From: Lophium mytilinum
Taxonomy: Eukaryota > Ascomycota > Dothideomycetes > Mytilinidiales > Mytilinidiaceae
DNA: 64,000 nt
NCBI GenBank assembly: GCA_010093605.1
Contig: MU004198.1
Span: 1,060,456 to 1,124,455, forward strand
Direction: 5' to 3'
The notes beneath the pieces are model-generated. The model was not told where the DNA came from, did not search any database, and was given only the letters and a program-made list of their open reading frames with translations. Of this stretch, positions 14,131 to 49,401 are shown in pieces. The stretch's first letter is position 1. The number at the start of each line of letters is the position of its first letter. The position numbers and the translations under genes were made by a program.

Positions 14131-15480
14131 TCATAAACTCTTGGGCATCTTTGTCTTCTTGCACACCGGTTCGTCTTCTCCGACTTCATCTTCTCCCTCC
14201 TTGACCTCATCCCGTTTGCGCCTGCTTGAATATTTGTGGGCTTCTGGAGTATATCCGCCGCTGGTCTGCCACTCCCCGTCCAGACACTCCTCCCCCAGGC
14301 ACCCCGGCTTCTGAGCCTCTCTCTGCTCATACTCTTCCTGCTCCGTCTCACTGCCTTGCTCTTGTTGTCGATCACGTTGATGATGGTGCTCGCTTATCTG
14401 TCGTTTGTCCGGAGCGTCTGTAGCCAAGTCTTCGGGCTTCTGTGACGGAATACCCAAACCTCCTCTCGGTGATATCGTGGGCACTTGTTCGCGGGTTTGT
14501 AGATTTGGAGTCTTCGGGTTCGTGCCGGGACCCGTACTCAACTCTTCTCTGATAGCGCCCGTAGTGATAGACAGCGCAGTTGCCCTTGATGCCCGCAAGG
14601 CTGTCCTCACCTTGTCCGTGACACGGCAAATGATCTCTCTGTCCTCTTCAAACTTATCTTTAGCCGTGTTGTTCCGCCTGCTCTGGTTCAGGAACGTCCT
14701 CAGAGTGGCATTAATCCGACGCCTGACAACGTCTGACTTGATAGAGCTTCCTAAGCCTTGCTCTGGTCTGACGATCTCTTGAGGGGTGTAGAACATGCGA
14801 AGCAGGATGAGTGTGGTTCCCGAATGCAGATGGGGTGCGTGATTGAGGATCCGCTCCATTGCACTCTCGTATTTCCGTAATCTAGTCATGTCTCCCGAAA
14901 AGAGGTCTTCGAGCAGCTCGTCAAGATCGGTTGGACTCTGAATCTGGTTGTATGGGTGTTGTTTGAGAGCTTCCATGAAACTCCAAGAATCGATATGTCC
15001 AGAAGGTGCTTCGGCTGTAGCTTGTTCGTGTGTATCTTTCTTAGGCTGCTCATCGGACTTCTTCTTGCCGCCTTTGGTGGGAACATAGATGATGCCAAGA
15101 TTCTGGAGTTGGTCGCCCGCATCCAACGTTGCCTTGAAGAGAGCTCGGTCCATCGGAAAATTGTAATGACCTGTGTGGCCACTGCGGTGCATTCCCTTCG
15201 CATGCCCAAACAAATGCTCCCCTTTGTCAATTCCGTATTGAAATATCTTGCGCAATAGCTCTTCCTCTTCCCATAGTAAGGTTGTTACGGAGGAAGGATT
15301 GCTTGCGGGAACTGGAGTATCTGAAGCGCCAATGATAGTACGAACAGAGGCGGTCTCGTGAACGGGACTCGCGCCTGTCGCAGAACTAGTTGCGTTTGCT
15401 TGGATAGGTACTTCCAGATCATGGGCACGCGGAGGAGTGTAGCTTTCCCCGCGGGCATGCGTCGATGAAGTGGCATCCAT
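14131..15480 (-). CDS. APHLH-family protein 1
   Basis: Single-exon protein of 449 residues from an ATG at 15480. It belongs to the unnamed paralogous family of this window. Shared landmarks in order are: a helix ending GIDKGEH (83-89), GHY (104-106), IYVPT (131-135), HPYN (175-178), a helical stretch, NHAPHLH (213-219) followed by TTLILLRMFYTPQEI, then LGSSI and a basic R-rich helix (RRRINATLRTF). The part after residue 300 is disordered, Glu/Gln/Lys-rich and ends KKTKMPKSL; with RRKRDEVK this resembles a nuclear localisation signal. No signal peptide, membrane segment or catalytic motif is seen. Its neighbour at 15991 is the closest physical paralogue, in the same orientation and 510 bases away. 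Function unknown. Confidence 0.7.
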   Translation of the reverse strand: MDATSSTHARGESYTPPRAHDLEVPIQANATSSATGASPVHETASVRTIIGASDTPVPASNPSSVTTLLWEEEELLRKIFQYGIDKGEHLFGHAKGMHRSGHTGHYNFPMDRALFKATLDAGDQLQNLGIIYVPTKGGKKKSDEQPKKDTHEQATAEAPSGHIDSWSFMEALKQHPYNQIQSPTDLDELLEDLFSGDMTRLRKYESAMERILNHAPHLHSGTTLILLRMFYTPQEIVRPEQGLGSSIKSDVVRRRINATLRTFLNQSRRNNTAKDKFEEDREIICRVTDKVRTALRASRATALSITTGAIREELSTGPGTNPKTPNLQTREQVPTISPRGGLGIPSQKPEDLATDAPDKRQISEHHHQRDRQQEQGSETEQEEYEQREAQKPGCLGEECLDGEWQTSGGYTPEAHKYSSRRKRDEVKEGEDEVGEDEPVCKKTKMPKSL

Positions 15481-15990
15481 GGTGGGTGGATAACTCAGAG
15501 TTGGTGTTGGTGTTGCGGCGCAGGAGGTGGTGACGGTGGCAAACGCTGTGGTGCTTGAAAGCTTGCGGCCTTTTGGCTATAGCGCGATGGCGATTCGATT
15601 CACACGTGACTGCGCACGGAGGTTGGCACCGTTACCGCTGTGAAAGTTTGTGTCCTCGAAGTAGAATTCTACGTTTATGTTGCAATAAATTAACATCAGT
15701 GCTGGCAAGTACGTGTCTAGACTCTACCAAAAGCGCCATTGAAGAAGTCAGGGATAGGACTTAAAAGTGCAATAGCCTACTGAACGCAGATTTTGGAGAC
15801 TCCAATCATGCTATCTAGAAACAACCCGACAATGATGTGAATGTCCTGCTATACTAACGATATTGAAGCATCTGCTCCATGATCCTAGACAGACAGAAGA
15901 ATGCATAGCTTCTTGGTGGGTCGAAGGTCATTAGTACGTTTTCGCCTTCTTATTCGCCAGCTTCTCACTCTTTATATACAATTCCCCCTG
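15481..15990. other. Intergenic between two APHLH-family genes
   Basis: This is the upstream region of protein 1 and downstream region of protein 2. I recognise nothing here. Confidence 0.4.
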
Positions 15991-17421
15991 CTAAGCATGG
16001 TCCCGCTTACGCTTGGCTGGAGAACTGTAGGATCGCGCAGGAGATCCGGGGGTGGAGGTGGCGCCCTGCGTCGTAGGCACATTATTCCTTGGATGTTCAG
16101 GCTGCGAGGCAGCATAGCCCTCCCTAGGGTTAGGGCCCTGACTTTGCTCCTCCAGAAGAGTTCTCGGGAACTCATCAGCCTCCTCATCCTCCGGAAACCC
16201 AGCATCCTCATCCTCACCATCAAGCTGGTCCAAGGACATTCTCTCGAGCTCATCAGGCTGCTCATCCTCCAGAAGCCCGGCCTCCTCCTCATCATCATAA
16301 TCATGAGATTCATCATCCTCGGATTCATCCTCATCAGCAGCTATTGGCGGTGGAGGCAAGCTCTTCACAAATTTCCTAACCCGATTTGCCTCATCCCGGA
16401 CAAGAGTTCTTGTAACCTCTGTCACCGATGACTTATTGACCATCTTTACCGACTTGTAAAGCCGAAACGCCACCGAAGAGCAGACTACGCTGCTCCCCAG
16501 CTTACGCTCCGCATACGTGATTTTTTCAGGGGTGAAGAACATCAACAAGAGCACATATGTAGCGTTGCAATGGAGATGCGGTGTGTACCGGAGGATATAC
16601 CGCATTGCCTCCTTGTACGGCCTCAGAATCTTCGCGTCTTCTGAGAGAACGTCTTCCACAATTTTCTCGGCGCGTAAGTGTTTGAAAGGACGTTGACGGT
16701 ATGCCTCCATGATATTCGAATACAAGATGGGCCGAAGACCTGGATCGCTGGGTGGTTGCCTAGTCGGGACGAACACCCTAGGGCCCTCCTCATTAGGCGG
16801 GTTGGTCTGAATCGGCCCATTGATTATTTCACTTTGGATTATTGCGTGTCGATAGTATCCAAGTCCCACCCTTCCCTTCCTGCGTGGGAAGTTCGAACGT
16901 TCATGTTCTCCATTGTCGATGCCAGTCTGGAAGATGTCCCGAAGCACTTCTCTCACGTATCTCACTGAGGACTGTTGGCCCGCGGATAACGTTTGCGGAA
17001 ACAGCAGAACTGGGGTAAAAGCCACGTTTACGTTGGGAGCTGGAGGATTCAGAGGGCTCGTCGCACCAAAGATTTGCGGAAAAGACAATTCAGCGTTCCG
17101 ATGAGACTGCGTGATGTTACTACGCATATTGAAGGCCTGTGAATCTGCGATCACATTTGTGACAGAGTGCTGTGAAAAGTCGTTTGCCCGGTATGGTGAT
17201 GTATATTTTGCGAAAGTACGGCCATAGTGAGTCTGTGGTGCAGCAAGCCGGGCGACAGGCACCCATCCAAGATACTGAGAGCTATACGTGCGGCCATTTG
17301 GAGCTATCGGATACCAAGAAGGGGTCTCATGAAAGTGAGTTGCGGCTGTTGCGGAGCTGGGGGCGACCCTTTGGAGAAGTACAGGAAGAAAGAGCTCCCA
17401 CCGCAGAGCCCTGGTGCCCAT
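15991..17421 (-). CDS. APHLH-family protein 2
   Basis: Single-exon frame of 476 codons from an ATG at 17421. The family domain spans about residues 150-345: DIFQTGIDNGEH (162-173), LGYY (187-190), VFVPT (216-220), RQRPFKH in place of the usual HPFN, then RYTPHLH (278-284) with Thr in place of the first Ala of APHLH, YVLLLMFFTPEKI and KLGSSV. The C-terminal third has two strongly acidic Asp/Glu runs (about 360-425) and ends PAKRKRDHA, a basic nuclear-localisation-like tail. The first 30 residues are hydrophobic (LFLPVLLQRVA), which could be a weak targeting signal or read through a 5' exon boundary. The true start could be a later ATG such as the one at about residue 99. Function unknown. Confidence 0.65.
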   Translation of the reverse strand: MGTRALRWELFLPVLLQRVAPSSATAATHFHETPSWYPIAPNGRTYSSQYLGWVPVARLAAPQTHYGRTFAKYTSPYRANDFSQHSVTNVIADSQAFNMRSNITQSHRNAELSFPQIFGATSPLNPPAPNVNVAFTPVLLFPQTLSAGQQSSVRYVREVLRDIFQTGIDNGEHERSNFPRRKGRVGLGYYRHAIIQSEIINGPIQTNPPNEEGPRVFVPTRQPPSDPGLRPILYSNIMEAYRQRPFKHLRAEKIVEDVLSEDAKILRPYKEAMRYILRYTPHLHCNATYVLLLMFFTPEKITYAERKLGSSVVCSSVAFRLYKSVKMVNKSSVTEVTRTLVRDEANRVRKFVKSLPPPPIAADEDESEDDESHDYDDEEEAGLLEDEQPDELERMSLDQLDGEDEDAGFPEDEEADEFPRTLLEEQSQGPNPREGYAASQPEHPRNNVPTTQGATSTPGSPARSYSSPAKRKRDHA

Positions 17422-17539
17422 CGTGACGGGACTAGATAGAGCTAGTGTCGAAGTGATAGTTGAGAACTGTGATGGTGGTAATGAATGTTGTGGTGTACTA
17501 CGTGGGCGGCGGTGGTGCGCGGTGGGCAGCTCCTGTCTT

Positions 17540-20440
17540 TTGGCTCAAAGGTATCATGTCACCTGGGCCGCTCTTGACAACGATGTCGACCTCCTTAAAC
17601 TTGCACTGCAGCAGTACAGTACAGGCGACAACAGCATGACTTGAGCATGATTACAGGATGATGATTTTTTTATCTAGGCACGAGTTCAATCATCGGTCTT
17701 TGCGGTGTGTGTTTGCTGAGGTGTAATATGTCAACCGGGCCGCTCCTGACAGTGAAGTCGAGCTTCCAGACCCAGCGCTCCAGCAGTAGCATATAGGTGC
17801 CCAGAGCTCTGACGTACCCCCATGAGCTTCTTTTAAAAAAGACGCGATTTCAAACATCGATCAGCGTCTTTCGAGATGTCCATTGACTAAAAGGCATTAA
17901 CTCAACCGGGCCGCTCCTGGCAGTCTTGTCCAGCGTCTAAATCTAGCACTTTGGAAGTAGCGTATTGTTGCCCAGGGAAAGAATGACCAGAAAATGATAT
18001 CCTTTCTACTATAAGCTGACTGTAAATTTCTAGTAGCATAATTTTAGGCTTTCTTTTGACTAGAAGACAGTCTGTCAATCGGGCCGCTCTCTGACGGTGA
18101 CGTGTAGCTTCTAAAGCTATACTTTAGGTAAAATAGTATTAGTGTACCAAGATATATCCCGAAATTCATTTGTTTTCCCATGGCCTATCCACAGTCACTT
18201 GCCAACGTTTAAAGTGCCCCCTTGTGAGTCTCAGAATTTGAACACACGATGTCAAATTCTAGGTAATGGCAGTCGACTTACACTTTAACAAGCTAGCTAC
18301 CTAAATACAGTAGCGCATAGCATCGAAAGATAGATCCCGGGCAGTATGATATGTATCTTAGATCCTGTTACGTTGCGAAAGGCTAGCCTACATTCGTTCA
18401 ACCACCGTTTTAGGATGCCCCCACGAGTTTTCAAGAGCCTAGACGCGGTGTTAAGATCACTGCGGTGGCAATCGAGTAACGCACTTTAAGAGGCCGGCCA
18501 CCTAGAGGTAAGGGGACTTCTAACAGTAGCATTAAGCCTCTGAGATCCTATAGAAGTAGCATACAGGTACCTAGAGCATGACAAGAGGGTAATATAAGAT
18601 GTTGCAGCCGCACGAACAAGAGGACACAAGCTTGTACATGCCATCTTTACATGTCGTCTCAATTGATCATGACGAGCTGAAGCACTACTAACAGCGGTAA
18701 GCAGGCCTACTGCCAGCGCGTGAGAGTCTTCTGAAGTAAGGCGTTAAGAGCTTTACATGATCTTCCGACTATTAAGATGCGCTGAAGCACCTCTATCCAA
18801 ACAAGTCATATCGGAGCGGGCCTCTATAAGCCTAGAAAGCTGATCATATGACGGTTTGAAAGATACAAAAGTAGAGATTAGACTGCCCTTTGCCAGGCTG
18901 GCTATCTGCTAGTCAAATAACACCTAACGGTGGCATAGAGTTGGTCGAACAGAGCATGAAATATTGCGTATCGAGGCACTCATTCTTGGGCTTCGAATGC
19001 TTAAGGTCACTGCGATGTTAAAGTTGAGGTAGCGGGGATTAAGATATGTTTTGGCTGGATAACTACCTGCTCACTGAGCGACCTCTTACAGCGGTGTTAA
19101 GCGAGTAGAAGGTAAGTTCAATCAGTGTAATTCTGGGGCGAGCACCTACGGTTGTCAAAACTCAGATCGCAACGTGTTGTCACGGTTAAGTCACTGGAGA
19201 TTAAGCTACCTTTTAGCCAAGCGGAATTATTACGGTTGGGGTACTCTTGACAGCGGCATTGAACAAGCAAAAGCTAAGATATAAAGATCCTAGTTGGAGG
19301 CTAAGTACTAATACGTTTGAAATCAAGATGTGCAGTTTTAGGCTATCAAAATTGCCCTACATCCTAACTAACCGATAACTTGTTGGTAGAGCCACTTCTT
19401 ACGGCGTTGTCATTGAACTAAAAACGAGGTCCGAGCAGCAAAACATCCGTTTAGTAGGTTCTTCAAGCCTTTCATACCATGTGAAAGCTAGGGTGTTGGA
19501 GATTGAACTGCAAGAGACTGTGTCCATTCTTTCAACTCTCACTAGTTGGAGCTACCGCAAATGGTACCAACCACATGTCGAACCCTTACTCGTAACAACC
19601 AGACACATACCTACTTGCCGGCTTCGCGGAGCTATTCGCACTCCCAATCGGCAGGTCAGTTCAGCGCCTGCAGGCCTTGAATCTTGTTTTTCTTTCTTAG
19701 ATCTCTCTGAAGCCTCTCAAACGGTACCAACGACCTATCAAACCTTCGCTCAGGAGATGCCTACACGCCTCTTACTTGCCGGCTTCAACGAGCTACTAAG
19801 CCGCCGTTAGAGTAGGCCAATGTTGCACATGTCGCCTTTGATATCGTGTTTACTATTATTCGACCCATTAAGACACTTCAGACGGTATCATCTGCCTAGA
19901 AAAGAACCGTGATTCTAACAGATTCAATATACGCTTTCCAGAACGTGGCATTTTACTTAAAACTTGGTCGCTACCATAGGGCGCCCCTGACGATGCTGAC
20001 ATACTAGAGAAGCGCGGGTATTTCGCAGTCTCAAACTTACGCTTTCCGGAACGTTACATCGTGTTGACTTCGGTTGGACCGCTATGTACACCCCAGGCGC
20101 CGTCATCCACCTGGCACACCGTCACGTACACGCCCCCTAGTGCCGGCTTAGATGAGCTATTAGACCCCCAAACACAAAAGCCTATTGCAGTACGTGCAGC
20201 TTTTGACATTGTGCTTTCCCATTTTCCAGCCCACATGAGGCCTCTCAGATAGTATCATGCACCTACCAAACCATCCTAAAATGCAATCCGTTTAATACTC
20301 TTACCCTTATCCAAGTAAAAAGGTCCAAACCTGTAACATAGCGTGGTACCGTAAACATCATTTTCAGGCACGCATAGTGATCAAGATGAGGGGCATTGTT
20401 TTATTCCACTACAGTAAAGAGGAGGGATCATAAGGACTAA
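17540..20440. repeat. Decayed satellite-like tandem array (about 160-172 bp period)
   Basis: There is no supported gene in this 2.9-kb stretch. The anchor GGGCCGCTC(C/T)TGACAG recurs at about 17565, 17737, 17908 and 18081, a spacing of 172, 171 and 173 bases. After that the units are more eroded: related anchors (CTTCTAACAGTAGC, CTCTTACAGCGGTG, CTCTTGACAGCGGC, CTTCTTACGGCGTTG) lie near 18518, 19084, 19246 and 19399. Further right, (A)CGGTACCA-type anchors recur near 19552, 19716 and 19877, a spacing of about 162. A second conserved piece, GTGCCCCC(A/T)TGAGTTTC, is seen near 17812, 18214 and 18415. The array looks old and heavily mutated and fills the space between APHLH-family proteins 2 and 3. 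Confidence 0.6.
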
Positions 20441-20512
20441 CATTGAACAGGAGACTCCACAGAACCAGTCAAACACGAAGCAAAGGGACTCATATTAACC
20501 CGGGCGCTCTAG

Positions 20513-22222
20513 CTAAGATAGAAGTAGCATTAGCTGAGCACGCACAGCCAGCAACCTGAAGGTCGCTTTCTTGGACGCGTCGACTCCTCCGAGGGCGTTA
20601 CGCAATGCCTGATCAACACGACGCGTGACATCCTCAATGGTGATCGTGTTGCCAAGATGGTGGTTAGCGTCTATGATGTCCTGCTCGGAGTGGAAGAAGA
20701 GCAGAAGGAGCAACGTGGCGTCCTTATGGAGATGCGGCGCGTAACGAAGAATCGGTATTGTCTGATCCCTGTACCTCCTTATGGTGTATCGATTCAGAGA
20801 TATAGCGCCCAAAGTGTCCGCTAGCTGTTCCTTCGGCATGTCAAAGGGATGATTCTTCCTGGCCTCCGCGAGGTGCGAGGCCAGGAATGGTATGGACACC
20901 TGCTCTGTCATCGCGTTGCTCTGAGCATGACCAGACGGGACGAAGGCAAGCATGGTCTCTCTAGGCTCTGCTCCGGCGCCGGTTGTTCTGCCAAGCATGA
21001 TGTTCACGATGGCTCGCTGTGGGGATTCCGGCCCGTTCGTAGTTATATAGTGGCCAATGCCTCCGTCTGAGTACGCCTCTGGCACGCTCTCGGTCATATG
21101 TTCATGGATGGAGAGGCCGTATTCGATGATTTGGAGGATCAAACGTGCCTGGGGGATTCGTGGCGGTGGAGCCAGAGCCGCTCCCTGAATACCGGTGTTT
21201 TCGGTAGAGGGACCAGCATTGGGCGAAGTAGGTGCGTCCAGAATCTCCTCGGCGCTGCTATGAAGAACAAGGTCGAAGGGCGCCGGTGTGCCTGGAACCG
21301 AGATCCTAGTGCGGATGTTGTCGCTGAGCTTCAACAGAATATTCCACTGGGTCGGGAAATCTGCCCGCGGTGTGATGGAGGTAAGGTAGGTCCTGACCCT
21401 ACCTTTGATCGCATTTATTGAGATGGGGGATCCGGCTTCCTTGATCCTCTCAACCATGTCATTTTGGCTGAAGAACATGAGGATTAGGCAAATAGTGGAG
21501 CGGCGCTGAAGATGTGGCGCGTATTCGATCACCTGCTGCAGGCGCGCTTTGTATCCCGTCAACACCGTAGCGTCTCCTGCCATCAAGTCTTGAAGAACCT
21601 GCTGCAGCGACTCCTTGTTGAATGGGTGTGCCAGCAATGCTTTCGCGACGTTGACAGCGTCCAAGTCAAGAGTAGTCACCAGCTCCCTCCTACTCTTTTT
21701 GTTTCCTGTGCCTTGCCGAATGAAAGCTAGCATGGTGGGTGTGGGAACTTCCTCCTCGGTAGAGGTGGAAGGAGCCTGCTGCTGTGCCGAGTTGGAAAGC
21801 TGTTGCAGAGCTGATTGGACCGCATCTCTCGGGTCATGAGAAATATGCTCGGGAGCATTAGGTATCACCTCCGCAGACGAACGTTGCGCATCCACAGTCG
21901 CAGGAAGAAGCTGCTGCACCTCTAAGCCAGGCCGCAGAATATATCGACCTACATCCAATCGTCCAGTGTTGAGAGGTATATTATTAACAGCGTGCTCCTC
22001 TGCTTTCATGCCGTCGGCGACGATGAGACCTATCACTTCCCTCCAGTTTTCCGGGTCACACACGAGTAGATTTTGTTCTTTTGATAACTTGTTGTTCGGG
22101 TGCGCTCGAGTGTACTGCTCGCCAGACCTGACAAGCTCCCAGTCTGTCGCGTTGATGGCTTTCTGGTTGCCTTGCGCCTCGGACGTCTCGGCCATGGCAT
22201 CTGCGGAAGTGTTGTCGTTCAT
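20513..22222 (-). CDS. APHLH-family protein 3 with two tandem domains
   Basis: I choose the ATG at 22222 (MNDNTSADAMAETSEAQ), giving 569 residues; the open frame continues upstream without an ATG. The family domain occurs twice. Copy 1 has GMKAEEH (71-77), VGRY, LAFIRQG, AHPFNKE (about 198-204) and EYAPHLQ (233-239) followed by CLILMFFSQNDMV. Copy 2 has GLSIHEH (369-375), IGHY, LAFVPSG, NHPFDMP (about 457-463) and RYAPHLH (493-499) followed by LLLLLFFHSEQDI and HLGNTI. A Pro/Ser-rich linker of about 60 residues separates them. The copies are clearly homologous but well diverged, so the duplication is not recent. It lies between the decayed satellite array and a gene-poor stretch with a miniature LTR element. 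Function unknown. Confidence 0.7.
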   Translation of the reverse strand: MNDNTSADAMAETSEAQGNQKAINATDWELVRSGEQYTRAHPNNKLSKEQNLLVCDPENWREVIGLIVADGMKAEEHAVNNIPLNTGRLDVGRYILRPGLEVQQLLPATVDAQRSSAEVIPNAPEHISHDPRDAVQSALQQLSNSAQQQAPSTSTEEEVPTPTMLAFIRQGTGNKKSRRELVTTLDLDAVNVAKALLAHPFNKESLQQVLQDLMAGDATVLTGYKARLQQVIEYAPHLQRRSTICLILMFFSQNDMVERIKEAGSPISINAIKGRVRTYLTSITPRADFPTQWNILLKLSDNIRTRISVPGTPAPFDLVLHSSAEEILDAPTSPNAGPSTENTGIQGAALAPPPRIPQARLILQIIEYGLSIHEHMTESVPEAYSDGGIGHYITTNGPESPQRAIVNIMLGRTTGAGAEPRETMLAFVPSGHAQSNAMTEQVSIPFLASHLAEARKNHPFDMPKEQLADTLGAISLNRYTIRRYRDQTIPILRYAPHLHKDATLLLLLFFHSEQDIIDANHHLGNTITIEDVTRRVDQALRNALGGVDASKKATFRLLAVRAQLMLLLS

Positions 22223-23061
22223 AGCGGATACGCGCTGTGGTCTGCCGTGAGAAGTTGTAGGGGAGGACTTCGAAGCAAGACGACCTTTTGTTCGCACGAC
22301 GTTGAATGGGTGTATGGGGCTGTAGGTGTCGTGGATCAGGTAAGTCAAGGTTGAGAGTTTGGTGCGGAGAAGTTGTCTGAAGTTTAGCTGTTGTTCCACT
22401 CTAAGAAACGCTCAGAAGCGAAATAAGCCGCCGGTCATTATGTAAGCGCAGCGATACTTGAGCAGATAGCGCCACCATCATCACTCCCCAGGCCCGAATC
22501 TCGCGTATATGACAGCAACATACATCTCCGTATTTTCAAACTCACTAAATCTTGCTCCATCTCCAGCTGTCCTGAGTCGCGCACTCGATTAGCAGTGTGT
22601 TCGACCATGTAAGGGGCATTGGGCCCGCGACAGGCTACCCGCCGGCGCACGGCGTCAGGACTAGTTCGAACGCCTATTGCTTGGATTAAACTGCGAATTG
22701 CCTCTTACAGATGACTAGAATGTTCTGTTAGAGCTGCTCCGGCAGACAGCCACGCCAACGGAGTGAACCTGATATAGTTCAGGTCCGACACTTCAAGGAG
22801 AACTCATGAAAGGAGGACTGTACGGCCAAGGAGCCTTTTCGCTGAGTACATAAACAATGTGGCGAGCTCACAATCGAATGATGGCTTAAAGGTGAGGAAG
22901 TTAGGTTCTCGATGTACCATACATGAGCGCTGAGCGGCAATAGCAGGGAGAGTAATCATAACCAGACGTGGAGCCAAAAGCTGATGTATTGATGAAGGTG
23001 AGGCAGGTAGCTATTTGAACAGAAGGAGGAAAGATATACTGGGGTTTTGTAGAGCAAGAAC
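22223..23061. other. Intergenic, nothing recognised
   Basis: This contains the upstream region of APHLH-family protein 3. I see no supported gene, repeat or RNA. Confidence 0.4.
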
Positions 23062-23319
23062 TCATTCCCAATACATACAAAGGAGAGGACAGTAAAAGAT
23101 GAGTCGACCTATGCTATGCTCTTTTGACTTTGACTCCCCCTTCTTTTTTCCAACTTTCTTTGCTAGCTTCTCCGCCTCCTTCGCCTCTTTCTTACCCTCA
23201 CCCTTCTTCTCTTCCTGCTTAAACTCCTTATAGGGCTTAAAACTTTGTGCGGCAGACTGGTCTTCTTTCGTCTCCAGGTCAGAGCCTACTTGGGCAGTTT
23301 CTGGCTCCTGAGTAAGCGG
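23062..23319 (-). CDS. Possible terminal exon of a Lys/Glu-rich protein
   Basis: An open frame of 85 codons without an ATG runs from a possible acceptor (CTATCTAG just before 23319) to a TGA at 23062. It reads as a highly charged helix (EEKKGEGKKEAKEAEKLAKK) with several Lys/Glu repeats. It could be the last exon of a decayed gene or a low-complexity coincidence from GA-rich DNA. No upstream exon could be placed. Confidence 0.22.
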   Translation of the reverse strand, partial: PLTQEPETAQVGSDLETKEDQSAAQSFKPYKEFKQEEKKGEGKKEAKEAEKLAKKVGKKKGESKSKEHSIGRLIFYCPLLCMYWE

Positions 23320-23435: not shown

Positions 23436-23960
23436 TGTTGGATGAAAAAGCACGCCCCGCCTAAGATTAGGGGGCCCGGAAAATAAGCGACGTTATATAC
23501 TCCAACACGCCCCGTAATGGAGCTGTGAGAAGGTTTCAAGTGGCAAAAAGCGTTGTAGCTTGATAATTGGGGTTGATTAATTGGTGGAAAGATGCAAAAG
23601 CGCACCGAGAGATGTATAATATTATGATATTTATGCATAGAGTTATGCTTGTTCCTCCTAGGAGGGTAGGGAGTGTTTTTTCCCTTTTTTTTTAGAATAT
23701 TAATTTTTGTGTAGGCGGGACGAGTTTCCATGCAGTTGCGGAAAATCGGAAATTAGTCCTGGTAAAAGACTCCCAAGCTGCCTTGTGTGCGTGTCGAACC
23801 CGTAAGTTGGTGTTCGCGCTGGCTAGTCATGGGTGTAGTCTGGTGTGCTAACCAAGTGGACCATCCGGGGGCAACCGGGCTCATAACCTGTTGGATGAAA
23901 AAGCACGCCCCGCCTAAGATTAGGGGGACCGGAAAATAAGCGACGTTATATACTCCAACA
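23436..23960 (+). mobile_element. TRIM-like miniature LTR retroelement
   Basis: Two direct repeats of 72 bp (23436-23507 and 23889-23960), each starting TGTTGGA and ending TCCAACA, bracket a 381-bp interior. The canonical TG...CA ends, the inverted 7-bp termini and the 5-bp direct flank GGGGG (23431-23435 and 23961-23965) fit a complete non-coding LTR-type element in miniature (TRIM or SMART class). The flank is low complexity, so the target duplication is suggestive rather than firm. The two terminal repeats look almost identical, so the insertion is young. The interior has no coding capacity; its minus strand holds a tRNA-like patch (about 23790-23863) with A-box- and B-box-like motifs. It looks whole for its class but depends on proteins supplied by another element. 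Confidence 0.6.
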
Positions 23961-23965
23961 GGGGG

Positions 23966-25115: not shown

Positions 25116-26075
25116 TCAAAAGAGCGTCGAACGGAACCACTTCTGGGGGATCCTCCCGCTCTGCGCCAAGTCCCGGAGCGCTTGGACAGCAAGCGGCGCC
25201 GGTATCGTATCGTCTTGCAGCCTTTTCCTCACCCGATACGCCCCCATGAACAGAATCCGCTTCTCTACGCGCACGTCGGGCTTTCCAAGTATCATCTTCA
25301 AGGCGCGCTCAATCCGGTTGTCTATACCAGGGCGTTCGATATAGTTCCCAAGCAAGCTCAAAGCTTGCGCAATGTCTTCAGTGTCTCGATAGAGGAGGAT
25401 GAGACAAAGGGTAGCCCCCTTCAGCATCAGGTGTGGCGCGCTGCGCAGCATCTTCCGGACGCAGGTGTCGTGTTTCTTGAACGCCGCAGCGTCTCCGCAC
25501 AACACGTCGGCGAGGAGCTTTACGGGAGACACGTCGTTGAATGGGTGTTTATCCACCGCACGCACGAGGTCTTTTGCCGCAATCGGGGCCAGATTGACGG
25601 ACATCGGTGATTTGGCGAACTTCACTGTGATAGGCGGGGTAGAGTAGAGGACGATGCCGGCCACGATCCGTCGAGTGTCGTGTGTTCCGGCCGCCCAGTC
25701 CAGAATAGCCAGAGATGCACCTCTGGGGTCGCCGCCGGTCATGCGGTAGTATCCGGCGCGGCATGCACCGTGCTGCAGATGGAAGAGTTGGTGCTCGCTG
25801 TGCTCGAGACCCCACTCAATGATCTTTGCGAGTAGCACGGCTAGGTTCTCCGGATCGACGAACTCTTCATTCTCCTCGGCCGTGTAGTGGGCCTTTCGGG
25901 TGCCTGGGGCGCGAGATCTCTTGATAGCCTTCTTGGCAGTAGCAGATTCTGAGACAGTTAGCGGATCATTGCGCCCATAGTGGGTAAGATTGTGCGTACT
26001 GTGTGTGGCTCTGCTGACCTGCATAGCCGGCACGTCGGGCTGCACGGGCAAGGAGGGGAGACCAGACGCAGACAT
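25116..26075 (-). CDS. APHLH-family protein 4
   Basis: The start is the ATG at 26075 (MSASGLPSLPVQPDV), giving 319 residues; the frame is open upstream but without an ATG. An N-terminal basic patch (KKAIKRSRAPGTRKAH) resembles a nuclear localisation signal. The family domain follows: IIEWGLEHSEH (about 85-95), AGYY (107-110), KHPFND (about 176-181), RSAPHLM (211-217) with Met in place of the last His, then TLCLILLYRDTEDI and LGNYI. The C-terminal helix KRLQDDTIPAPL is shared with APHLH-family protein 5 and with the relic at 30.0 kb, which places these three in one subfamily. No signal peptide or membrane helix. Function unknown. Confidence 0.7.
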   Translation of the reverse strand: MSASGLPSLPVQPDVPAMQVSRATHSTHNLTHYGRNDPLTVSESATAKKAIKRSRAPGTRKAHYTAEENEEFVDPENLAVLLAKIIEWGLEHSEHQLFHLQHGACRAGYYRMTGGDPRGASLAILDWAAGTHDTRRIVAGIVLYSTPPITVKFAKSPMSVNLAPIAAKDLVRAVDKHPFNDVSPVKLLADVLCGDAAAFKKHDTCVRKMLRSAPHLMLKGATLCLILLYRDTEDIAQALSLLGNYIERPGIDNRIERALKMILGKPDVRVEKRILFMGAYRVRKRLQDDTIPAPLAVQALRDLAQSGRIPQKWFRSTLF

Positions 26076-29926: not shown

Positions 29927-29999
29927 ACTGGGGAGCCGGGGGGGGAGGGGCTGCGGAAGGAGTAGGAAGTGTTTGGGCAAGGGGGGTTTTGCAGAAGAA

Positions 30000-30126
30000 A
30001 AGGGGGAGTTTCAGGCTTGGACAGCAAGTTCTGTTCAGGGGGGCTTTGTATCTCGAGGAGCGGCTGTGCGACGACTCTATCCCTGCGCCGTTGAACCTCG
30101 GGGAAATTGGAGGGAGTGTAGGATAG
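30000..30126 (+). pseudogene. Relic of an APHLH-family gene (C-terminal end only)
   Basis: One plus-strand frame reads FRGALYLEERLCDDSIPAPL (encoded at about 30037-30096). This matches the C-terminus of APHLH-family protein 5 (KGALFLEKRLYDDTIRAPL) and protein 4 (KRLQDDTIPAPL). The rest of the domain is missing upstream, where the DNA becomes G-rich and unrelated. It is an old partial copy in the opposite orientation to proteins 4 and 5. Confidence 0.6.
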
Positions 30127-30886: not shown

Positions 30887-31648
30887 TCAGCGGGGGATGT
30901 TGTAGGCTTGCATAGCAATTTGCAGAGATGCTAGTTCCAACGGCGCACGGATCGTATCATCATATAGTCGCTTCTCGAGAAACAGAGCCCCCTTGGACAG
31001 AATCTTCTGTTCAAGACTGACATCTGTTTCATCATAGATAGACCTTAGTGACATTCTGATTCGGTTACTGATGGCACCAGCGCCTATTGAATTGCCTTGC
31101 TGCGTGACGGCGGTCGCAATTTCTTGCGTAGTATACAGCATCCGAAGAAGACAAAGGGTGCCGCTCTTGGCTTGAAGATGGGGCGCGTACTCGAGTATGG
31201 CCTTGAGGCGATATCTATATTCGTTGACGACCACGGTGTCCCCGCACAAGATGTCTTCGACAATCTTCTCGGCACTGTAGGTATTCAGAGGGTGGCGAGC
31301 TACGGCTTTGGCAATGTAGGCCACTGGGATCGCTCGTAGTGGAGGGTCGATGCCGTCCAACACGTCCGAGGGTGAGTATTCCACAAATACCGTGGGGTGG
31401 TTGCGATAGTCATGCACAACGTCGACCGGATCCCGCCCATTGTTGCCCCCAACAATCTTGTAGTACCCGGTATCCGCGCTCGCGTGCTGCATTATACTGA
31501 CATCGTGCTCCCGGTTGTGTTTTGCGAACCGAAGTATTTTGTACAGCAAGTCAACTAGCTCCCCGGGGTTCTTCAATCTCCATTTTTGGGCAGCTGACAA
31601 TCTGGCCTTGCGGCTCGTCTCGCCAGTCTGCTGTGTATTTGCTGACAT
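30887..31648 (-). CDS. APHLH-family protein 5 (minimal form)
   Basis: Single exon, ATG at 31648, 253 residues: the shortest member, and so the best guide to the domain limits. A basic N-terminus (TSRKARLSAAQKWRLK) is followed by KILRFAKHNREH (37-48), TGYY (60-63), VFVEYSP (87-93), ARHPLNT (117-123), EDILCGD, EYAPHLQ (153-159) with CLLRMLYTTQEI, then QGNSIG, RIRMSLRSIY and the C-terminal KRLYDDTIRAPL. There are no disordered tails, signal peptide or membrane segment. It shares LCGD and the KRL-DDTI end with protein 4. Satellite-like repeats lie directly downstream. Function unknown. Confidence 0.7.
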   Translation of the reverse strand: MSANTQQTGETSRKARLSAAQKWRLKNPGELVDLLYKILRFAKHNREHDVSIMQHASADTGYYKIVGGNNGRDPVDVVHDYRNHPTVFVEYSPSDVLDGIDPPLRAIPVAYIAKAVARHPLNTYSAEKIVEDILCGDTVVVNEYRYRLKAILEYAPHLQAKSGTLCLLRMLYTTQEIATAVTQQGNSIGAGAISNRIRMSLRSIYDETDVSLEQKILSKGALFLEKRLYDDTIRAPLELASLQIAMQAYNIPR

Positions 31649-42049: not shown

Positions 42050-42919
42050 TCAACCATTGCACTCGTTTCGCCAGGCCTAAATCAATTTCTCAACTTCCTC
42101 AGTCCACGCCTTCAAAATTGCAAGAGCCTTCTCAATCTACTTCACTTGCTTGTCCAACTTTTCAGCAAGTTGCATAGCGGACGCTTCCTTTTCCTTGTAT
42201 GTTTGTCCCGTTTCATCATGCGACTCGAAGCCAGCTGCATCGAGCTCATCGTACCACTCCGCCAAATAACGTTGCCAAAGGACGGCATCTTTGGTACACC
42301 CCAACGCCACTTTCAGCTCACCAAGCCCACGCTCTCCTAGGCTAAGGGTATAGCGGTAAGCCTCGACGGTATCATGAGCGTCTATGGCATTCCACCCTCC
42401 AATAGGATGGTCCTCGTCAGGATGGGCAGCCCGCTCTGGCCTAGCAAAGCTTGCGCGGATCAAGGTCTTCACAGCCCTATGACGAGCTTTGCGGGACTTC
42501 CTGTGGGCATAGCGCGCCTGGCTTGCCGTGACCCAAGCCCAACTGTCCGGACCGCCCGGCATTCTCGTGGTAAAGCACCTCGGAGCGAGTAAGGGGTTGG
42601 ACGGATCGCGTTCGGGCTGATGGGGTGGACGCTTAAAGGGGGGCCATTGTGTGACGGGGGTGCTGTAAGCTCGCTGGGAGTTCTCACGGGCGGTGTGCTG
42701 CGCGTGCTGTCTATCAAAGGCAGCGCGCTTCTCGTCATCGGAAAGGACTTCGTACGCATTCTGTAGGTTTTTGAATTTTTCTTGGCCGGCTGCCTACTTA
42801 GAGGGGTCACGGATCTTGTCCGGATGATAGACGCGGGCGAGATGATAGTAGGCTTTACGAATAGTAGCCACATTTGCATCTTGTGGGACGCCCAGGATTT
42901 GGTATGGGTTTGGCTCCAT
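42050..42919 (-). pseudogene. J-domain protein gene with three TAG codons
   Basis: From ATG 42919 (MEPNPYQILGVPQDAN) a single frame of 290 codons runs to a TGA at 42050. It is interrupted only by three TAG codons, at codons 42 (42794-42796), 261 (42137-42139) and 281 (42077-42079). The first stands where the intact neighbour has Gln (DPSK-TAG-AAGQ against DPTKQAAGA), so a CAG-to-TAG change is the simplest explanation and fits RIP. The N-terminal J-domain keeps the HPD tripeptide (VYHPDKI). The C-terminal part is helical and charged, similar in plan to the two neighbouring paralogues. Read as three TAG stops the product is lost; readthrough or an intact allele elsewhere cannot be excluded. Confidence 0.75.
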
Positions 42920-43262
42920 CTGTAGTGATGGGCCGGCAAGGTTGCTTTTGAGAGTTGTGAAGGTTGTGCAGGATTCTGTAGGGTGGTCTTGTGATGTGCG
43001 ACTCGACGTAGTGTGGCGAGTTGAGGCTCGAACGAGCTGTGACACTTGGTATCATTTTACGCTGGATTTTGTATGCATTGAGGGCGCAGATAGGCGGTGA
43101 AAGTGGAAGCTGATGATGCAATAGCAAAGGGGTGACGGCAACTCTTCAGCATTGTGTGAATTGGCACACCTGATTCCCTGGACAGGCATGGCCATCACGG
43201 GACTGCAGATCGCTGCTAAATGGTCATTCACCTAGATACTGAGGTAATGAGTGACAATCATG

Positions 43263-43270
43263 TATATAAG
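43263..43270 (+). promoter_or_regulatory. TATA box of the intact J-domain gene
   Basis: TATATAAG lies 86 bases upstream of the ATG at 43356, a good distance for a fungal core promoter. A CA-rich leader follows. Confidence 0.55.
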
Positions 43271-43355
43271 GAACTATTCCACGCCACCAAACCACTCCAC
43301 TTCCAGGCTTATACACACCACACGCCACCATCACAACACACTTCTTGCTATCAAA

Positions 43356-44201
43356 ATGGCACCATCCCCATACTCAGTCCTCGGTGTTTCTCATGACGCA
43401 AATGCTGCTGATATTCGGGCCGCCTATCACCGCATGGCGTTAAAATGCCACCCCGATAAGATCCAGGATCCCACCAAACAAGCTGCAGGGGCTGAGACAT
43501 TTAAAGACGTCCAGGCTGCATACGAGGTTCTGAAAGATTCTACAATGCGTTCTGCCTTCGACCGCGAATACGCAAGCAAACACCAACCCCGACAATCCCA
43601 GCCCTTCAAAACCAACAAAAAGCGCTCGGACAGCTACAAGGCCTACGGAGACAACCCGATCATGTACGCTACTTACCAAAGCACCGCTATGTCCGCGCTA
43701 CGAACTGCGGATGCGCTCGTGGCAGCCTCGCTCCTCAGCTATGCTCTCGCGAAAATGGCTTTCGAACGCGCCTTAGCAGTTGTCCCAATACATTCCGGCC
43801 GCCCTAGTGACTACAGGCACCTTTTCGATCAAATGCCAGTCAAGGACTTTCATGAAGCAACGCGCACGACTGCTTCAGCGTGGATTAGGGCTATTGGATC
43901 GGGACGCGTGGCCGTTGAGAAAGCGGTCCTCACCTCGAGGCAGCAGAAGCAGGCGGTGATGGCACTCGAGCTAGCCTTGAAGAGCTTCAGATGGTGTGCA
44001 GAACATAGTCAGGGCTTGGAGCAGACGGAAATGATAGCAAAGAAGCTTAGTTGCACGGCGAAGATAGAGGAGATGAGAGCGAGCGCAAGGCAAAGCAAAA
44101 ATCAGCGGAAGGCGTGGGAGGAGAGCGTGCGGGGTTGGGAGGCTGTGAGAAATGAGTGGTTGTGTGAGCGAGCTAAGTTCACGCCCTTGAGGCCTTTGTA
44201 A
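43356..44201 (+). CDS. J-domain (DnaJ-like, class III) protein
   Basis: The ATG at 43356 begins MAPSPYSVLGVSHDANAAD, and 281 residues follow. The J-domain occupies about residues 4-70, with the HPD motif in KCHPDKI and the usual helix IV region AAYEVLKDSTMRSAFD. No Gly/Phe region, zinc-finger or canonical C-terminal DnaJ domain is present, so it is a class III type that would stimulate an Hsp70 ATPase through the J-domain only. The rest is an Ala/Glu/Lys-rich helical region of unknown role. No signal peptide or membrane helix is seen, so it is probably cytosolic or nuclear. It lies between two minus-strand paralogues, both with damaged frames, and is the only intact gene of the three. A good TATA box precedes it. 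Confidence 0.8.
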   Translation: MAPSPYSVLGVSHDANAADIRAAYHRMALKCHPDKIQDPTKQAAGAETFKDVQAAYEVLKDSTMRSAFDREYASKHQPRQSQPFKTNKKRSDSYKAYGDNPIMYATYQSTAMSALRTADALVAASLLSYALAKMAFERALAVVPIHSGRPSDYRHLFDQMPVKDFHEATRTTASAWIRAIGSGRVAVEKAVLTSRQQKQAVMALELALKSFRWCAEHSQGLEQTEMIAKKLSCTAKIEEMRASARQSKNQRKAWEESVRGWEAVRNEWLCERAKFTPLRPL

Positions 44202-45205
44202 GTACATGAAGGGGAGAAGATGTTCGGTGTTTCGAATTTCGATTAGGCTACAGTACTAAGCCACAAGTCTGGGCACATATATTCATTACAGCTTGGCCTC
44301 AACTTGCTCACTCGACACTACTGTTGGGGGTACCCTGGCTGTTGAGCAGGCAATTTGTCAAGAGGTAGTCCAATCTGCACTGCTTGAACCTCGACATCAC
44401 CCTTGGATCTTCGAAATCCTGTGGGGGAACCCCATGCGGTGTCGAGCTAGTGTGCCCAGACTTGTGGCCTGTCACTGTATGTGGTCTTTGAGATTGATGG
44501 ATGCATCATATATCGGCTGAGAGTAAGCCGATGACATACAAAGCTGGACAGGCCTATACAGCCAGCATTGACGATACAGATCCGGCAAATAGTTTGCAGT
44601 CTGGGGCGGTTGCTTGAATTTCATAGCTTACAAGATACTCTATACTCAGCTCAACATGAGCTGTCTAGCTTCATTTTCCTCGTGTATCACATGAACTTAC
44701 AGTCTTTCTCTAGTGGCTGAAGCTGAAGAAACTAACTTCGTCACTCTACACACGTGAAAACTCTACTAGAGGGCGGAAGAGAAGATGCTGAAGTGGCAGA
44801 GACCAATGGAGGATTTGGATAGACTAAGTGAATTTCGTCAGCTTAAATACTGTACGCTCGGCGATAAGGAGGAGGTGCTTCGACAAATGGGTTTCATATC
44901 AAAGGATGATTTGGGGAATCTGTGGGAGACGTAGAGGAATAATATGTTTTCGCCGCTTCTTGGGAGAAGCCACACGAACATCGTGGTTGGCCGATATCCA
45001 CGACAAACATTATGCAAATCTTTGGAGCAAGATAGAAGAAGCATTGATATCAATTTCTATGAACTTTTTCTAAGTTTTGGGTGGATGGGATCACCTCTCG
45101 GGCCTGTCATTACGGCTGGTTTCTGTTTATTCCAGGTGTTGTATAGGACTAACTGCCTACAAGGCTTGCCAGAACTAGCTACCAATACTCTACACCTGCA
45201 GACTC
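44202..45205. other. Spacer within the J-domain cluster
   Basis: No gene is supported. Around 44310-44450 it has two related palindromic words, TGGGGGTACCCTGGC and GTGGGGGAACCCCATGCGG, of the dispersed repeat seen near 24.3 kb. Confidence 0.4.
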
Positions 45206-46346
45206 CTATTTAGCCAACTCTTGATACCAAGCAGCAGAGAGATCACGCCACTTGTCACGATTGCTAGCCCACTTAGTTTCCATCTCCTTAGTCTTATCTA
45301 CTAAGTCTCGGACATGTGCCCGCTTTTCCCTGCAAATCGCTTCGTGCGTGTGGAACCCAGCTTTGTCGTGTCGGCGATCGAACACACTCTGGTTGTTCCA
45401 AAGCTTGTTGAACGCTTCTGCGGCTTTCTCTAAAGCTACGACGCATTCTGCTCTATCTTTGGCAGCAAGACGGTGGTAATTGGAGGCAGTCATCGCATGA
45501 ATTGCGGCTTTGCCATACGCATCAGCCGTCATCTTGGCCTTCTCGCGACGCCAGTCCGTTCCAGCTGCATACCTCGGCATTCCGTCTAGATACTCACGAT
45601 GCCTCGAGGGATGATCCATCAGGAGCACCCCACGGCACTTCCTCTGCTTCAGTGCGGGCTTTGCGACCTTGCCGAGCCAAGTTCTCAGCACGTTCAAACG
45701 CTTGAGAAGCAGCGTCGCGGAGCGAGAAAGCGTGGAGGACTTCTAGCTCTGGGGGCATGGCTGACGCGCTGGGCTTTGGGTCACTGTTTGCAGAATCAGT
45801 GCTCGGCTTTGGGAAGCCGAAATTGACGTTGGCCCATTGCTTTTGAAACTTTGAACCAGCTTCTGAAGGGGTATTCGTTGAAGTACCTGTTTTAGGAGCA
45901 CCTCCTTGGGAATGAAAGCTAGAGGACGCGAATCCGGAGGAAGCATTCCTAGAGACTTTCTCCTTAGGTGGTGCATGAGATTTGGTCCCAAAAGAAGCGA
46001 ATCGTGAGGGGCGAGGGTCTGGGCTAGCTGGCCTGGGAACTCGTGGGCTACCCCCAGTCTGGGATTCGGAAGAATCGTGCTTAGAAGCTGTCTTTGCTGA
46101 AGCCGCTGATGTATGGGGTGCTGGGGTACGGTTGAGCTCAGCGCGTTCGGTGTCGTCCTTCAGCAAATCATAAGCGGCCTGCACTTGCCGGAACCTTTCT
46201 TGTCCCTCTGCACGTTTAGCCGGATCTTGTTTCTTATCTGGGTGATTGAGGAGCACCAGTCGCTTATATGCTCTTCGAATGTCGTTTTGGTCGGCATTGC
46301 GCGGGATGCCTAGGACGGCCCAGGGGTCGGAAGAGTGAAAGGGCAT
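45206..46346 (-). pseudogene. J-domain protein gene with a frame change
   Basis: ATG 46346 begins MPFHSSDPWAVLGIPRNAD. The J-domain (about residues 5-72) keeps HPD in LLNHPDKKQDP. A Ser/Pro-rich linker (about 73-190) follows, then a helical segment (ASQAFERAENLARQGRKA). The first frame ends at 45594. Coding character continues without break in another frame (HREYLDGMPRYAAG from about 45600 to the stop at 45206: WRREKAKMTADAYGK, then CVVALEKAAEAFNKLW). The two frames overlap by about 100 bases, so a one-base indel near 45600-45640 is likely. A GTGAGT next to the first stop could instead be a splice donor, but I found no convincing acceptor. It may be a genuine pseudogene, an assembly error, or two exons. 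Confidence 0.65.
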
Positions 46347-46414
46347 GGTGGTGTGGGGGCTGACGTTGCACTTCCGCGGCGACGAGGCGATCAGGAATGA
46401 TCGACTTGAAGGCG

Positions 46415-46422
46415 TCTATATA
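46415..46422 (-). promoter_or_regulatory. TATA-like box of the third J-domain gene
   Basis: TATATAGA on the minus strand lies about 70 bases upstream of the ATG at 46346. Confidence 0.45.
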
Positions 46423-46879
46423 CGTTGCTTGAGCATAGGTGAAAGTAGGAATATCTATATGATCATGTGACTAAATCATGCGCATTGTGCAGAGATAGTG
46501 AGTGCTACAAGGTTGGGATGCATTTGGGATAACTTTCACTACGGCCAGAAGTGATGTATTGTTGACTATGTGGTTGAGGGTACGTCTCGCTATATTTTGT
46601 TCTATTCTAGAGCAGTATTATTCTATTCGAGACAGCAACGCCCTTTGCATCATGCTTATTTCGTAGTTACCCTGATTAAACAAGCATTCATGGCTGCCCA
46701 TTACAATGATTCAGCTAGCCATGCCGTAGAACAACTCTATGTATTGGCTGCTGTTGCGGATGCGCGAGGTGGATTCTTTCCTTCACTGGTGTCTACCACT
46801 GGCCCCACGTTACACGTGATTTTGGCGCTAGCGTGGGGCTAGCATAGCCGAATGCTGATGGGATGAAATGACCTCGGCG
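46423..46879. other. Intergenic, nothing recognised
   Basis: I see no gene here. A run near 46805 (GTGTCTACCACTGGCCCC) loosely resembles the satellite anchors. Confidence 0.35.
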
Positions 46880-47310
46880 CCAAGCCTATCAACCTCAAAT
46901 CGTAACATGTAGTCGGTATATTTTGACTCTATCAACACACTTCAGACAGTACCAACTACATGTTAATGCCCAGTGAATCAAACTTGTCATAAATGAACCC
47001 TCACGCCTTGAACATGCTTTGCAAGGTTTTCAATCGCTTTCAAGACCCCTCAGACGGTACCATCACCCTGCCAACCCCTCACAAATCACCCCTATTAGAT
47101 ATGAACCCGCGCGGTTATGAGACCCTACGCTGGATTCCGTGACACCTTCGGGACAACTCAAACGGTGTTACACAGCTGGTGAAGGCTTGGACGTGAATTT
47201 TGTAATATTTGAGTCCTCGTGCTTCTAACGTGGTGTTGTGCAGATTCTGCCTTCCAAGACCACTCCAGACGGTACTGACTCCCTGCCAACCCGTCGTAGA
47301 TTATCCCTGT
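46880..47310. repeat. Short tandem array, about 108-bp period
   Basis: The anchor (C/T)TCAGAC(A/G)GTACCA recurs near 46940, 47049, 47158 and 47263, a spacing of 109, 109 and 105 bases. Related pieces CTGCCAACCC(C/G)TC follow two of the anchors. The same anchor occurs at about 162-base spacing near 19.7-19.9 kb, so it is probably one repeat family in two period forms. Confidence 0.6.
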
Positions 47311-47737
47311 ATATATCCACAAGCCCTCGTGCTCCTAACATTATTCACTCGTGGTTTCGGTTCTTAGTTCGCAGAAATAGATTTAGTTTTTTTGGCCCTC
47401 TTCCGAAGTATCAATCCTTCGCTCCCAGTAAATCTCCAATTCCACGTGACCACGTCTACGAAGGACCTCAACTCGGTGCCATTCCGTCCGGATCCTGGCC
47501 TGGCAGCAAAGATATCAGAGCAAGTTTACTCGTGGTACGCCCATTTCACAAAGATAGTCTCGCTGTGAATTCGTGATCTGAAAGGCACGACGGCATAAGT
47601 GAGCGGGGTCTGGTCAGGGCTCTACGACAACCCCTTTTCCCTCTCTTGAATCTAGATAGCCGCAATAATGTGCCAGCCGGGGTATCGGGGCAGCATGTGG
47701 TCGTCTAACGGGTGGCGCTGAAGTACTATTCAGGTAG

Positions 47738-48004
47738 TCAAGCCACCTCTGTCGGCCTGGTCAAGTTATGGCTGCATCTGCTCCGCTCCTCATACTGACA
47801 GCGTTGAAACTCGACTTGGTATCCAGAATCGTATCGATGAGCGCTAGAGAGCCATTTTGAATAGCGCTCCGTGCAGTCTTGAGCTTGTCTTTGCCACTTC
47901 ATCAAGCCGGCGCTGACGGTGGCAACTAGCAGCCAAAATAAGTTGAAGTTAGGTCGACTTCGTAGCATGATGCCTTGATGCTGACGATCGCGCCTCCAAT
48001 TCAT
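47738..48004 (-). CDS. Possible small membrane protein
   Basis: ATG 48004 opens 88 codons with a varied composition rich in Trp, Tyr, Arg and Gln and one hydrophobic stretch (FNLFWLLVATVSAGLM). A palindromic TATA-like word, GGCCTTATATAGGCC, lies about 20-35 bases upstream; it reads equally well on the other strand. No family is recognised. It may be a chance frame. Confidence 0.2.
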   Translation of the reverse strand: MNWRRDRQHQGIMLRSRPNFNLFWLLVATVSAGLMKWQRQAQDCTERYSKWLSSAHRYDSGYQVEFQRCQYEERSRCSHNLTRPTEVA

Positions 48005-48525
48005 GTAACCGTGCGAGCGTGGCCTATATAAGGCCGCCTTTAATGCAGCCGTGAACAATTCCTTGCACACTCAACCCAGCTCCAAAGCGGCAAGCAGGAC
48101 CCATAGCAAGACCATACTTCGTCGGATTCACGCTCCCGTGGCTGCTGCCTTCAGACAGGTGGCCTCGATGAGAGCGTAGGACTGAAACGGCCCTCTTCTT
48201 GACCTATCTCCGAAGGGGGGTGAGTCGGACGTTCACGTGCGTGACTTTCACACTGCACGGACTCTCTCCCGACGTCCTCTTAACTCTTCATCCTCCTCGC
48301 CCTCGCAACCTCCTTCCTCCAACAACCACCACCGCCCGCACAGTAAGTCAACAACGATCCTCTTCGTCTTCACCAAGCCCTCGTCTTTGTGAAGCTGACC
48401 CCCCCTCGCAAGCAAGCTCTTCTTCGCCCAGCAGACTCTTCTGCGCACAAAAAGGTTCTTCCTCACCGAACGAACACCACAACACCACAACACCACCCCA
48501 TCTCACCGCCACACCATCACCAACA
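48005..48525. other. Upstream region of APHLH-family protein 6
   Basis: This contains the palindromic TATA-like word at about 48022-48036 and, near 48345, a GTAAGT that could start an intron in a 5' leader. The frame stays open through here without a better ATG than 48526. Confidence 0.4.
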
Positions 48526-49401
48526 ATGCCTCCCAAGAAACAGAAGACCCAGCATACCCAGCATACCCAGCAGAGGGTAAGAACGGTCGTCGACAGAGCG
48601 AAGTTCCACCCCCTCCTCGTCGACATCGTCGCCCGCATCGTTCAGATCGACCAGCTCGGCGGCTCCTGTGTCCCCATGGACGCAGACAAGTGCCACTACG
48701 AGTTCTGTACACCGGCCGACCGCAACAAGGCCCGCGACGCCGGCTTCCCCACCGCCCGCCTCGCCATCACCCATACCCTGTACCCGCACACCAAGCCGAG
48801 CAACGAGACCGAGGAGCCCCCCAAGCAGCCGCCGCCAGACGTGCGCGTCATCTACATCCCCGAGCGTCGACGCGAGGACTACAAGAACCTCGACAGAAGC
48901 ACCCTCGCCCCGCGCCAGATCGGCACCATCGGCATCGCTCTGCGTGCCTCCCCGTTCGTCCAGTTTCCAGCCGGCCTGTTCGCCGACGCGGTCTGCATGG
49001 GGCACAAAGTCGTCCGCACCATGTTCGAACCGTTCGCCCGCATGGTCCTCGAGGCCGCGCCGCACTTGCACATTGATGCCATGTTGCTGTACATACCACT
49101 ATTCGTCCCAACCACGGACGTCGCCAGCACGGCCGACAAGAATGGGTACGGGTTGGAGAAGGATGTGTGGGTGACGAGGCGGGACGATGCCCTCAAAGTA
49201 ATCCGCGATACGGTCGCCGATGCAGGGAGCGAAAAGGCCAAGAAGGAGCTCTTGGAGAGGAAGGACACGCTGCAGGCGCTAAGGCGCTACATTGGGGAGA
49301 TTCTTGCTGCGCCGGTGGAGGAAGAGGAGGACTCCGACGAGGAGAAGGAGAAGGCAGCGGAGAAGAATGAGGACGTGGCAATGAAGGACGTTGCCGAGTA
49401 G
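48526..49401 (+). CDS. APHLH-family protein 6 (divergent)
   Basis: The ATG at 48526 begins MPPKKQKTQHTQHTQQRV, a basic, nuclear-localisation-like start; 291 residues follow. It is the most diverged member: the E-H helix is altered (VARIVQIDQLGGSC), GYY becomes CHYEF, the VPT segment reads VIYIPERR, and HPFN becomes ASPFVQF. The core AAPHLHIDAMLLYIPLFVP (APHLH at 178-182) is unmistakable. The C-terminus ends in an acidic run (EEEEDSDEEKEKAAEKNED). It is the only family member on the plus strand apart from the relic at 30.0 kb. Degenerate satellite arrays lie on both sides (46.9-47.3 and 49.9-51.5 kb). Function unknown. Confidence 0.65.
   Translation: MPPKKQKTQHTQHTQQRVRTVVDRAKFHPLLVDIVARIVQIDQLGGSCVPMDADKCHYEFCTPADRNKARDAGFPTARLAITHTLYPHTKPSNETEEPPKQPPPDVRVIYIPERRREDYKNLDRSTLAPRQIGTIGIALRASPFVQFPAGLFADAVCMGHKVVRTMFEPFARMVLEAAPHLHIDAMLLYIPLFVPTTDVASTADKNGYGLEKDVWVTRRDDALKVIRDTVADAGSEKAKKELLERKDTLQALRRYIGEILAAPVEEEEDSDEEKEKAAEKNEDVAMKDVAE

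Follow-up and report, generated by a model that had tools for sequence, protein, structure and literature searches.

Lineage-restricted families of unknown function are numerous in fungi. Besides these, the described systems closest to the family reported here are the helix-turn-helix (HTH) domains of the sigma-70 region 4, LuxR/GerE and Fur types, the chromodomain (PF00385) and the Saposin-like family PF20825. The family was identified in a 64,000-nucleotide stretch of DNA (the window) from Lophium mytilinum, a bark-dwelling fungus (Dothideomycetes, Mytilinidiales) whose genome comprises 43.18 Mb in 24 contigs; the window corresponds to C18:1060456-1124455, C18 being contig MU004198.1. An earlier note on this DNA had claimed six genes with seven copies of an unrecognised domain, one relic copy, and a local, lineage-specific expansion. 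Judged by their sequences, the seven window copies are one homologous domain, referred to here as the 'APHL' family, which has further members elsewhere in the genome and orthologues in a second genus.

The homology of the seven copies is indicated by two types of comparison. All six of the open reading frames (ORFs) are open at the positions given in Table 1, and BLASTP comparisons across the 21 pairs of copies gave E values ranging from 4e-42 (D-E) to 2e-3 (C1-F). In a leave-one-out test, in which a hidden Markov model (HMM) profile made from the other six copies was scored on the copy left out, 7 of 7 copies were recovered with E values of 1.8e-41 to 1.9e-10 (viz. A 6e-33, B 7e-35, C1 9e-32, C2 2e-28, D 7e-40, E 2e-41, and F 2e-10), while the top score among 200 shuffles per test was E 0.14 and that among 643 background ORFs was 0.034. 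The background consisted of ORFs of at least 80 amino acids (aa) from the C18 and C19 regions, with nine family ORFs taken out beforehand. By a codon score for which eight neighbouring genes served as the training set, each of the six genes scores best in its own frame; one antisense frame of gene F is also slightly positive. The copies are strongly diverged, as had been claimed, with five members 18-34% identical to gene E. Two outcomes had been named in advance as counting against the family, namely its placement in a well-described family and a failure of the copies to align with each other, and neither occurred.

The motif set by which the family was first described stands only in part. 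The core, written as [AT]PHL, is present in all seven copies, whereas every other motif, searched as a regular expression in the form originally given, is found in one to six of them (xEH in 6, G(Y/H)Y in 5, (F/Y)VP(T/S) in 4, (Y/H/S)APHL(H/Q) in 4, HP(F/Y)N in 3, and LILxFF and LGxSI in 1 each), and the (F/Y)VP(T/S) match in gene F is out of place. The core itself varies, reading TPHLH in B, APHLM in D, and APHLQ in C1 and E.

Members of the family are also present outside the window. A wider genome search, which used nine protein queries (D not among them) together with profile scans of the fetched regions and whose counts are thus lower bounds, identified three members on contig C19 and one on contig C9 (Table 1). 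The profile of the seven window copies matched the three C19 rows with E values of 5e-10, 3e-6, and 2e-6, the C9 row with 8e-11, and a C9-type row from Mytilinidion resinicola with 3e-6, all of which score above the shuffles and the background ORFs; the C9 row was weak in the first searches (E 1.56, 0.002, and 0.49) and was counted as a member only after this profile test. In total, at least ten genes with eleven domain copies are counted, besides three relics, one of them probable. The relic claimed within the window is confirmed by its similarity to the end of gene E, which amounts to 39% over 56 aa and 77% over 83 bp of DNA. Three other candidates, one at C1:1735015 (E 0.33) and two on C6 (E 4.85 and 0.66), were too weak to be counted. 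The claimed local expansion is supported for the cluster on C18, in which A-E group with the Mytilinidion protein of D type at a middling 87/89, but the family is not strictly local, given its members on C19 and C9.

Two proteins of M. resinicola represent the family outside L. mytilinum. BDZ99DRAFT_479618 is an orthologue of gene D (59% over 316 aa, nearly gapless) and BDZ99DRAFT_572607 is an orthologue of the C9 member (56% over 331 aligned positions); both are uncharacterised, and they show only that two genera have the family. The lineage-specificity that had been proposed, if read as restriction to a single species, is contradicted by these orthologues. The Mytilinidion orthologue of D also bears on the gene model, as the NCBI model of this gene, BU16DRAFT_567088, has additional N-terminal residues and a single residue in place of an 18-residue stretch, whereas the orthologue aligns without a gap to the open frame of gene D across that stretch. 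Hence, the intronless 319-residue model is preferred, and on this alignment it is probably the better one and the NCBI model wrong.

In a tree of the 13 member rows, the firm groups are the C9 pair (100/99), in which the core reads APNM, D with its orthologue (100/99), E with these latter two (98/95), and two of the C19 rows (99/96). The grouping of all three C19 rows (85/85) and that of A-E with the Mytilinidion D protein are not firm, and all C18 rows come together in only 10% of 200 bootstrap trees. Gene F, which lies 17 kb from the other cluster genes on the opposite strand and is the most distant of the window copies, forms a long branch of unsure placement beside the C9 pair; it belongs to the family as a distant member by profile, but an origin in the C18 expansion does not follow from the tree. 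These sequence relationships are consistent with an old family that expanded in tandem on C18.

The taxonomic range was also explored in a protein database. A search with gene E returned only E itself. A second search, which scored only the 7,996 candidates having the largest number of words in common with the queries, returned M. resinicola as the only other species and missed A, B, E, and F, and a third, with A, B, C1, C2, E, F, and the three C19 rows as queries (D and the C9 pair being left out), gave no match among 6,504 candidates and missed even E, the only one of the missed members known to be in the database. The insensitivity of these searches is due to the small number of 5-letter words that members have in common: in 8 of the 13 rows, the core shares 0-3 such words with all other rows together. 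As gene E was missed although present in the database, absence of the family from other fungi is not claimed.

Table 1. Genes, dispersed members and relics of the 'APHL' family in Lophium mytilinum (positions without a contig name are those of the window).
Feature	Position	Strand	Description
Gene A	14131-15480	-	ORF, 449 aa; single domain copy at residues ~72-265; acidic and basic stretches in the tail
Gene B	15991-17421	-	ORF, 476 aa; single domain copy; acidic tail, KRKR stretch at end
Gene C	20513-22222	-	569 aa; two HMM domains, C1 N-terminal and C2 C-terminal
Gene D	25116-26075	-	319 aa; single domain copy; locus of BU16DRAFT_567088 (P0002)
Gene E	30887-31648	-	253 aa; consists almost wholly of the domain; model pLDDT 85.3, pTM 0.82
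Gene F	48526-49401	+	291 aa; divergent member; acidic C-terminal tail
Relic	29968-30108	+	Inverted partial copy of gene E 3' end; tblastn E 2e-6 (window)
Family member	C19:252936-254039	+	Domain region looks intact
Family member	C19:232586-233893	-	Domain region looks intact
Family member	C19:257871-259310	-	Domain region looks intact
Family member BU16DRAFT_581832	C9:166026-166983	-	At least two exons; domain region looks intact
Relic	C4:406502-406774		67% to third C19 member; one stop
Probable relic	C1:319335-319568		E 7e-4 to F; two stops; profile E only 0.02 to 0.25

The structure of the compact 253-residue member, gene E, was modelled with AlphaFold and searched with Foldseek, as the earlier note had suggested. 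The model is confident in both its predicted local distance difference test (pLDDT) and its predicted template modelling (pTM) score, and it has no accepted match among solved structures, neither the whole model nor a sub-domain of it giving a Foldseek match at E <= 0.001. It is predicted to contain N-terminal helices, three short strands and then about ten helices, two of which are single turns, and the helix at residues E190-205 has a positive mean charge. The basic stretches resembling nuclear localisation signals (NLS) that had been reported for several members are present in A, B (KRKR at residue 470), D, and F, within the core in C, and not in E. Near the N-terminus, the most hydrophobic 11-residue stretch scores 0.0 to 1.0 (weak) in A, C, D, and E and 1.7 and 2.0 (moderate) in B and F, and as far as this score goes, B or F could be secreted. 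Across the 13 rows, invariance is confined to a single proline and a single glycine. That no polar residue is conserved throughout speaks against an enzyme, and this reading was rejected.

The explanation that we favour, with a probability of roughly 35%, is that of a taxon-restricted fungal family whose single non-enzymatic, mostly helical domain serves as a binding module working in the nucleus, perhaps one of HTH-like form. Tandem duplications, in the Lophium lineage or an ancestor of it, would have enlarged the family, whose copies then diverged. The C-terminal part of the domain, in which most rows read approximately T-x-x-[ED]-I ... G-x-x-I ... R ... L, may hold an HTH-like unit; the basic last helices would contact DNA or an acidic partner, and the variable acidic or basic tails would give localisation and the choice of partner.

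The alternative that survives best, tentative in itself, is that the domain is a helical bundle for protein-protein interaction that does not bind DNA, i.e. an adaptor whose divergence stems from self/non-self recognition (e.g. heterokaryon incompatibility) or from scaffold duties, with the tails used for docking. The all-helical sub-domain model and its weak structural rows, which are mostly helical proteins such as the HEAT types, are consistent with an adaptor, as are the tandem cluster, the divergence of its members from E and the absence of any invariant polar residue. However, the C-terminal helices are basic and the NLS-like stretches are present, and no HET, NACHT, or HeLo domain is reported in the six window proteins or in four C19 reading frames. 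The D orthologues of the two genera are, moreover, nearly gapless, and near-gapless orthologues are atypical of recognition genes under balancing selection.

The family could also be a very distant branch of a described one, such as the winged-helix or the Fur/LuxR-type regulators, lying beyond the reach of profile and fold tools; we regard this as improbable, though not strongly so. It draws on the likeness, in our own reading, of the pattern described above to HTH segments, on weak VIA rows, and on the nearest rows for HTH families, TerS_N (E 0.095) and FUR (E 0.12), which fell below the cut-off in searches of the 13 members (Pfam, PHROGs) and of consensus pieces (Pfam, NCBIfam, PHROGs). Against this stand the Foldseek results and the Pfam search of the 13 members, in which no family fitted more than one of them (best E 0.022). 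That the family was unrecognised is indeed borne out by the lack of an accepted match in Pfam, NCBIfam (three consensus pieces only), PDB sequences, or PDB folds; PHROGs searches of the 13 members and of consensus pieces likewise gave none, and in the literature searched the family was not found under the motif name, either locus-tag prefix, or the L. mytilinum genome. Membership in a known family was rejected on the lack of an accepted match to Pfam, NCBIfam, PHROGs, PDB sequences, and PDB or BFVD folds, a rejection that covers only the fold families listed there. An origin of the members from a mobile element or a virus gene, domesticated or carried as cargo, would account for the dispersed members, the relics on C4 and C1 and the missing relatives, and it could draw on the small element of long terminal repeat (LTR) type within the cluster and on the chromodomain-like partner on C19, a domain that also occurs on some retroelement integrases, but it is unlikely in view of the ten other window proteins scanned, in which neither a transposase nor a reverse transcriptase domain reached E <= 0.01, of the predicted viral structures (BFVD), which gave no accepted match (best E 0.86), and of a codon usage resembling that of the host genes.

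Several other features were observed in and around the loci of the family. The LTR-type element (window 23436-23960) is 525 bp long and has two 72-bp direct repeats with TG...CA ends that are 99% alike, with GGGGG on both flanks; we take it to resemble a terminal-repeat retrotransposon in miniature (TRIM). Among the 28 places listed for it in the genome, 4 cover nearly its whole length (73-100%) and the other 24 consist of the repeat alone (~44-75 bp), one of them at window 9042-9114. A second local family surrounds the cluster (window 42140-46415, with C18:1055736 and C18:1127280 on the flanks) and includes two DnaJ-domain genes, which at least three further reading frames or fragments resemble by BLASTP; in the scan of the ten other window proteins, a DnaJ gene gave one weak clamp_Gag1-like row (E 0.0046). 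On C19, two ORFs lying among the family members, C19:247646-248848 (L021) and C19:255817-256587 (L022), are 49% identical to each other over 39 aa and carry, in our reading of their sequences, C2H2-like CxxC...H motifs. The ORF at C20:19917-20024 (L058), by eye unrelated to the family, has a short acidic tail that is 58% identical over 36 aa to the Mytilinidion C9-type member and is perhaps a motif or exon common to the two; the sole profile row of L058 (E 2e-6, to A4) can stem from this acidic tail, which is present in the P0005 row of A4.

The compact gene E protein, with its confident model and no accepted match to a solved structure, is an easy structural target. If the members are nuclear regulators, those on C19, on C9, and in the cluster represent a small example of a lineage-specific regulator family arising and spreading; otherwise, this is an ordinary lineage-restricted fungal family. 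A bolder version of the nuclear reading, which we consider unlikely, would make the domain both a new fold and a new class of module for binding DNA or chromatin in eukaryotic nuclei, restricted to the Mytilinidiales or near relatives; it would first have been coupled to a chromodomain-like reader (as in the C19 type) and later have been released and amplified in tandem to give stand-alone regulators.

None of the described systems named at the outset gave an accepted match. For the Saposin-like family PF20825, gene B is the only one of the 13 members with any similarity, a weak row overlapping its core (E 0.022-0.057) that falls short of the curated cut-off (13.9 bits vs. 27). A chromodomain is a possible partner domain in two C19 members, which have a stretch of the YLIRWKDSW type matched by cpSRP43 chains (E 0.0029-0.59); Pfam Chromo (PF00385) itself gave no match at E <= 10 when segments were scanned, none at these two C19 places in a whole-genome exon-by-exon scan, and no row for the window members. 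The spacing of the last helices resembles, in our reading, that of HTH domains, to which VIA gave weak rows; there is no significant match to these domains in sequence or fold, and the APHL domain exceeds them in length, having an additional bundle of helices as well as its three short strands. While there is a small chance of a new fold and class of regulators, the family is best described as real, unrecognised and modestly expanded, and it is of a kind already familiar, that of the lineage-restricted tandem families.
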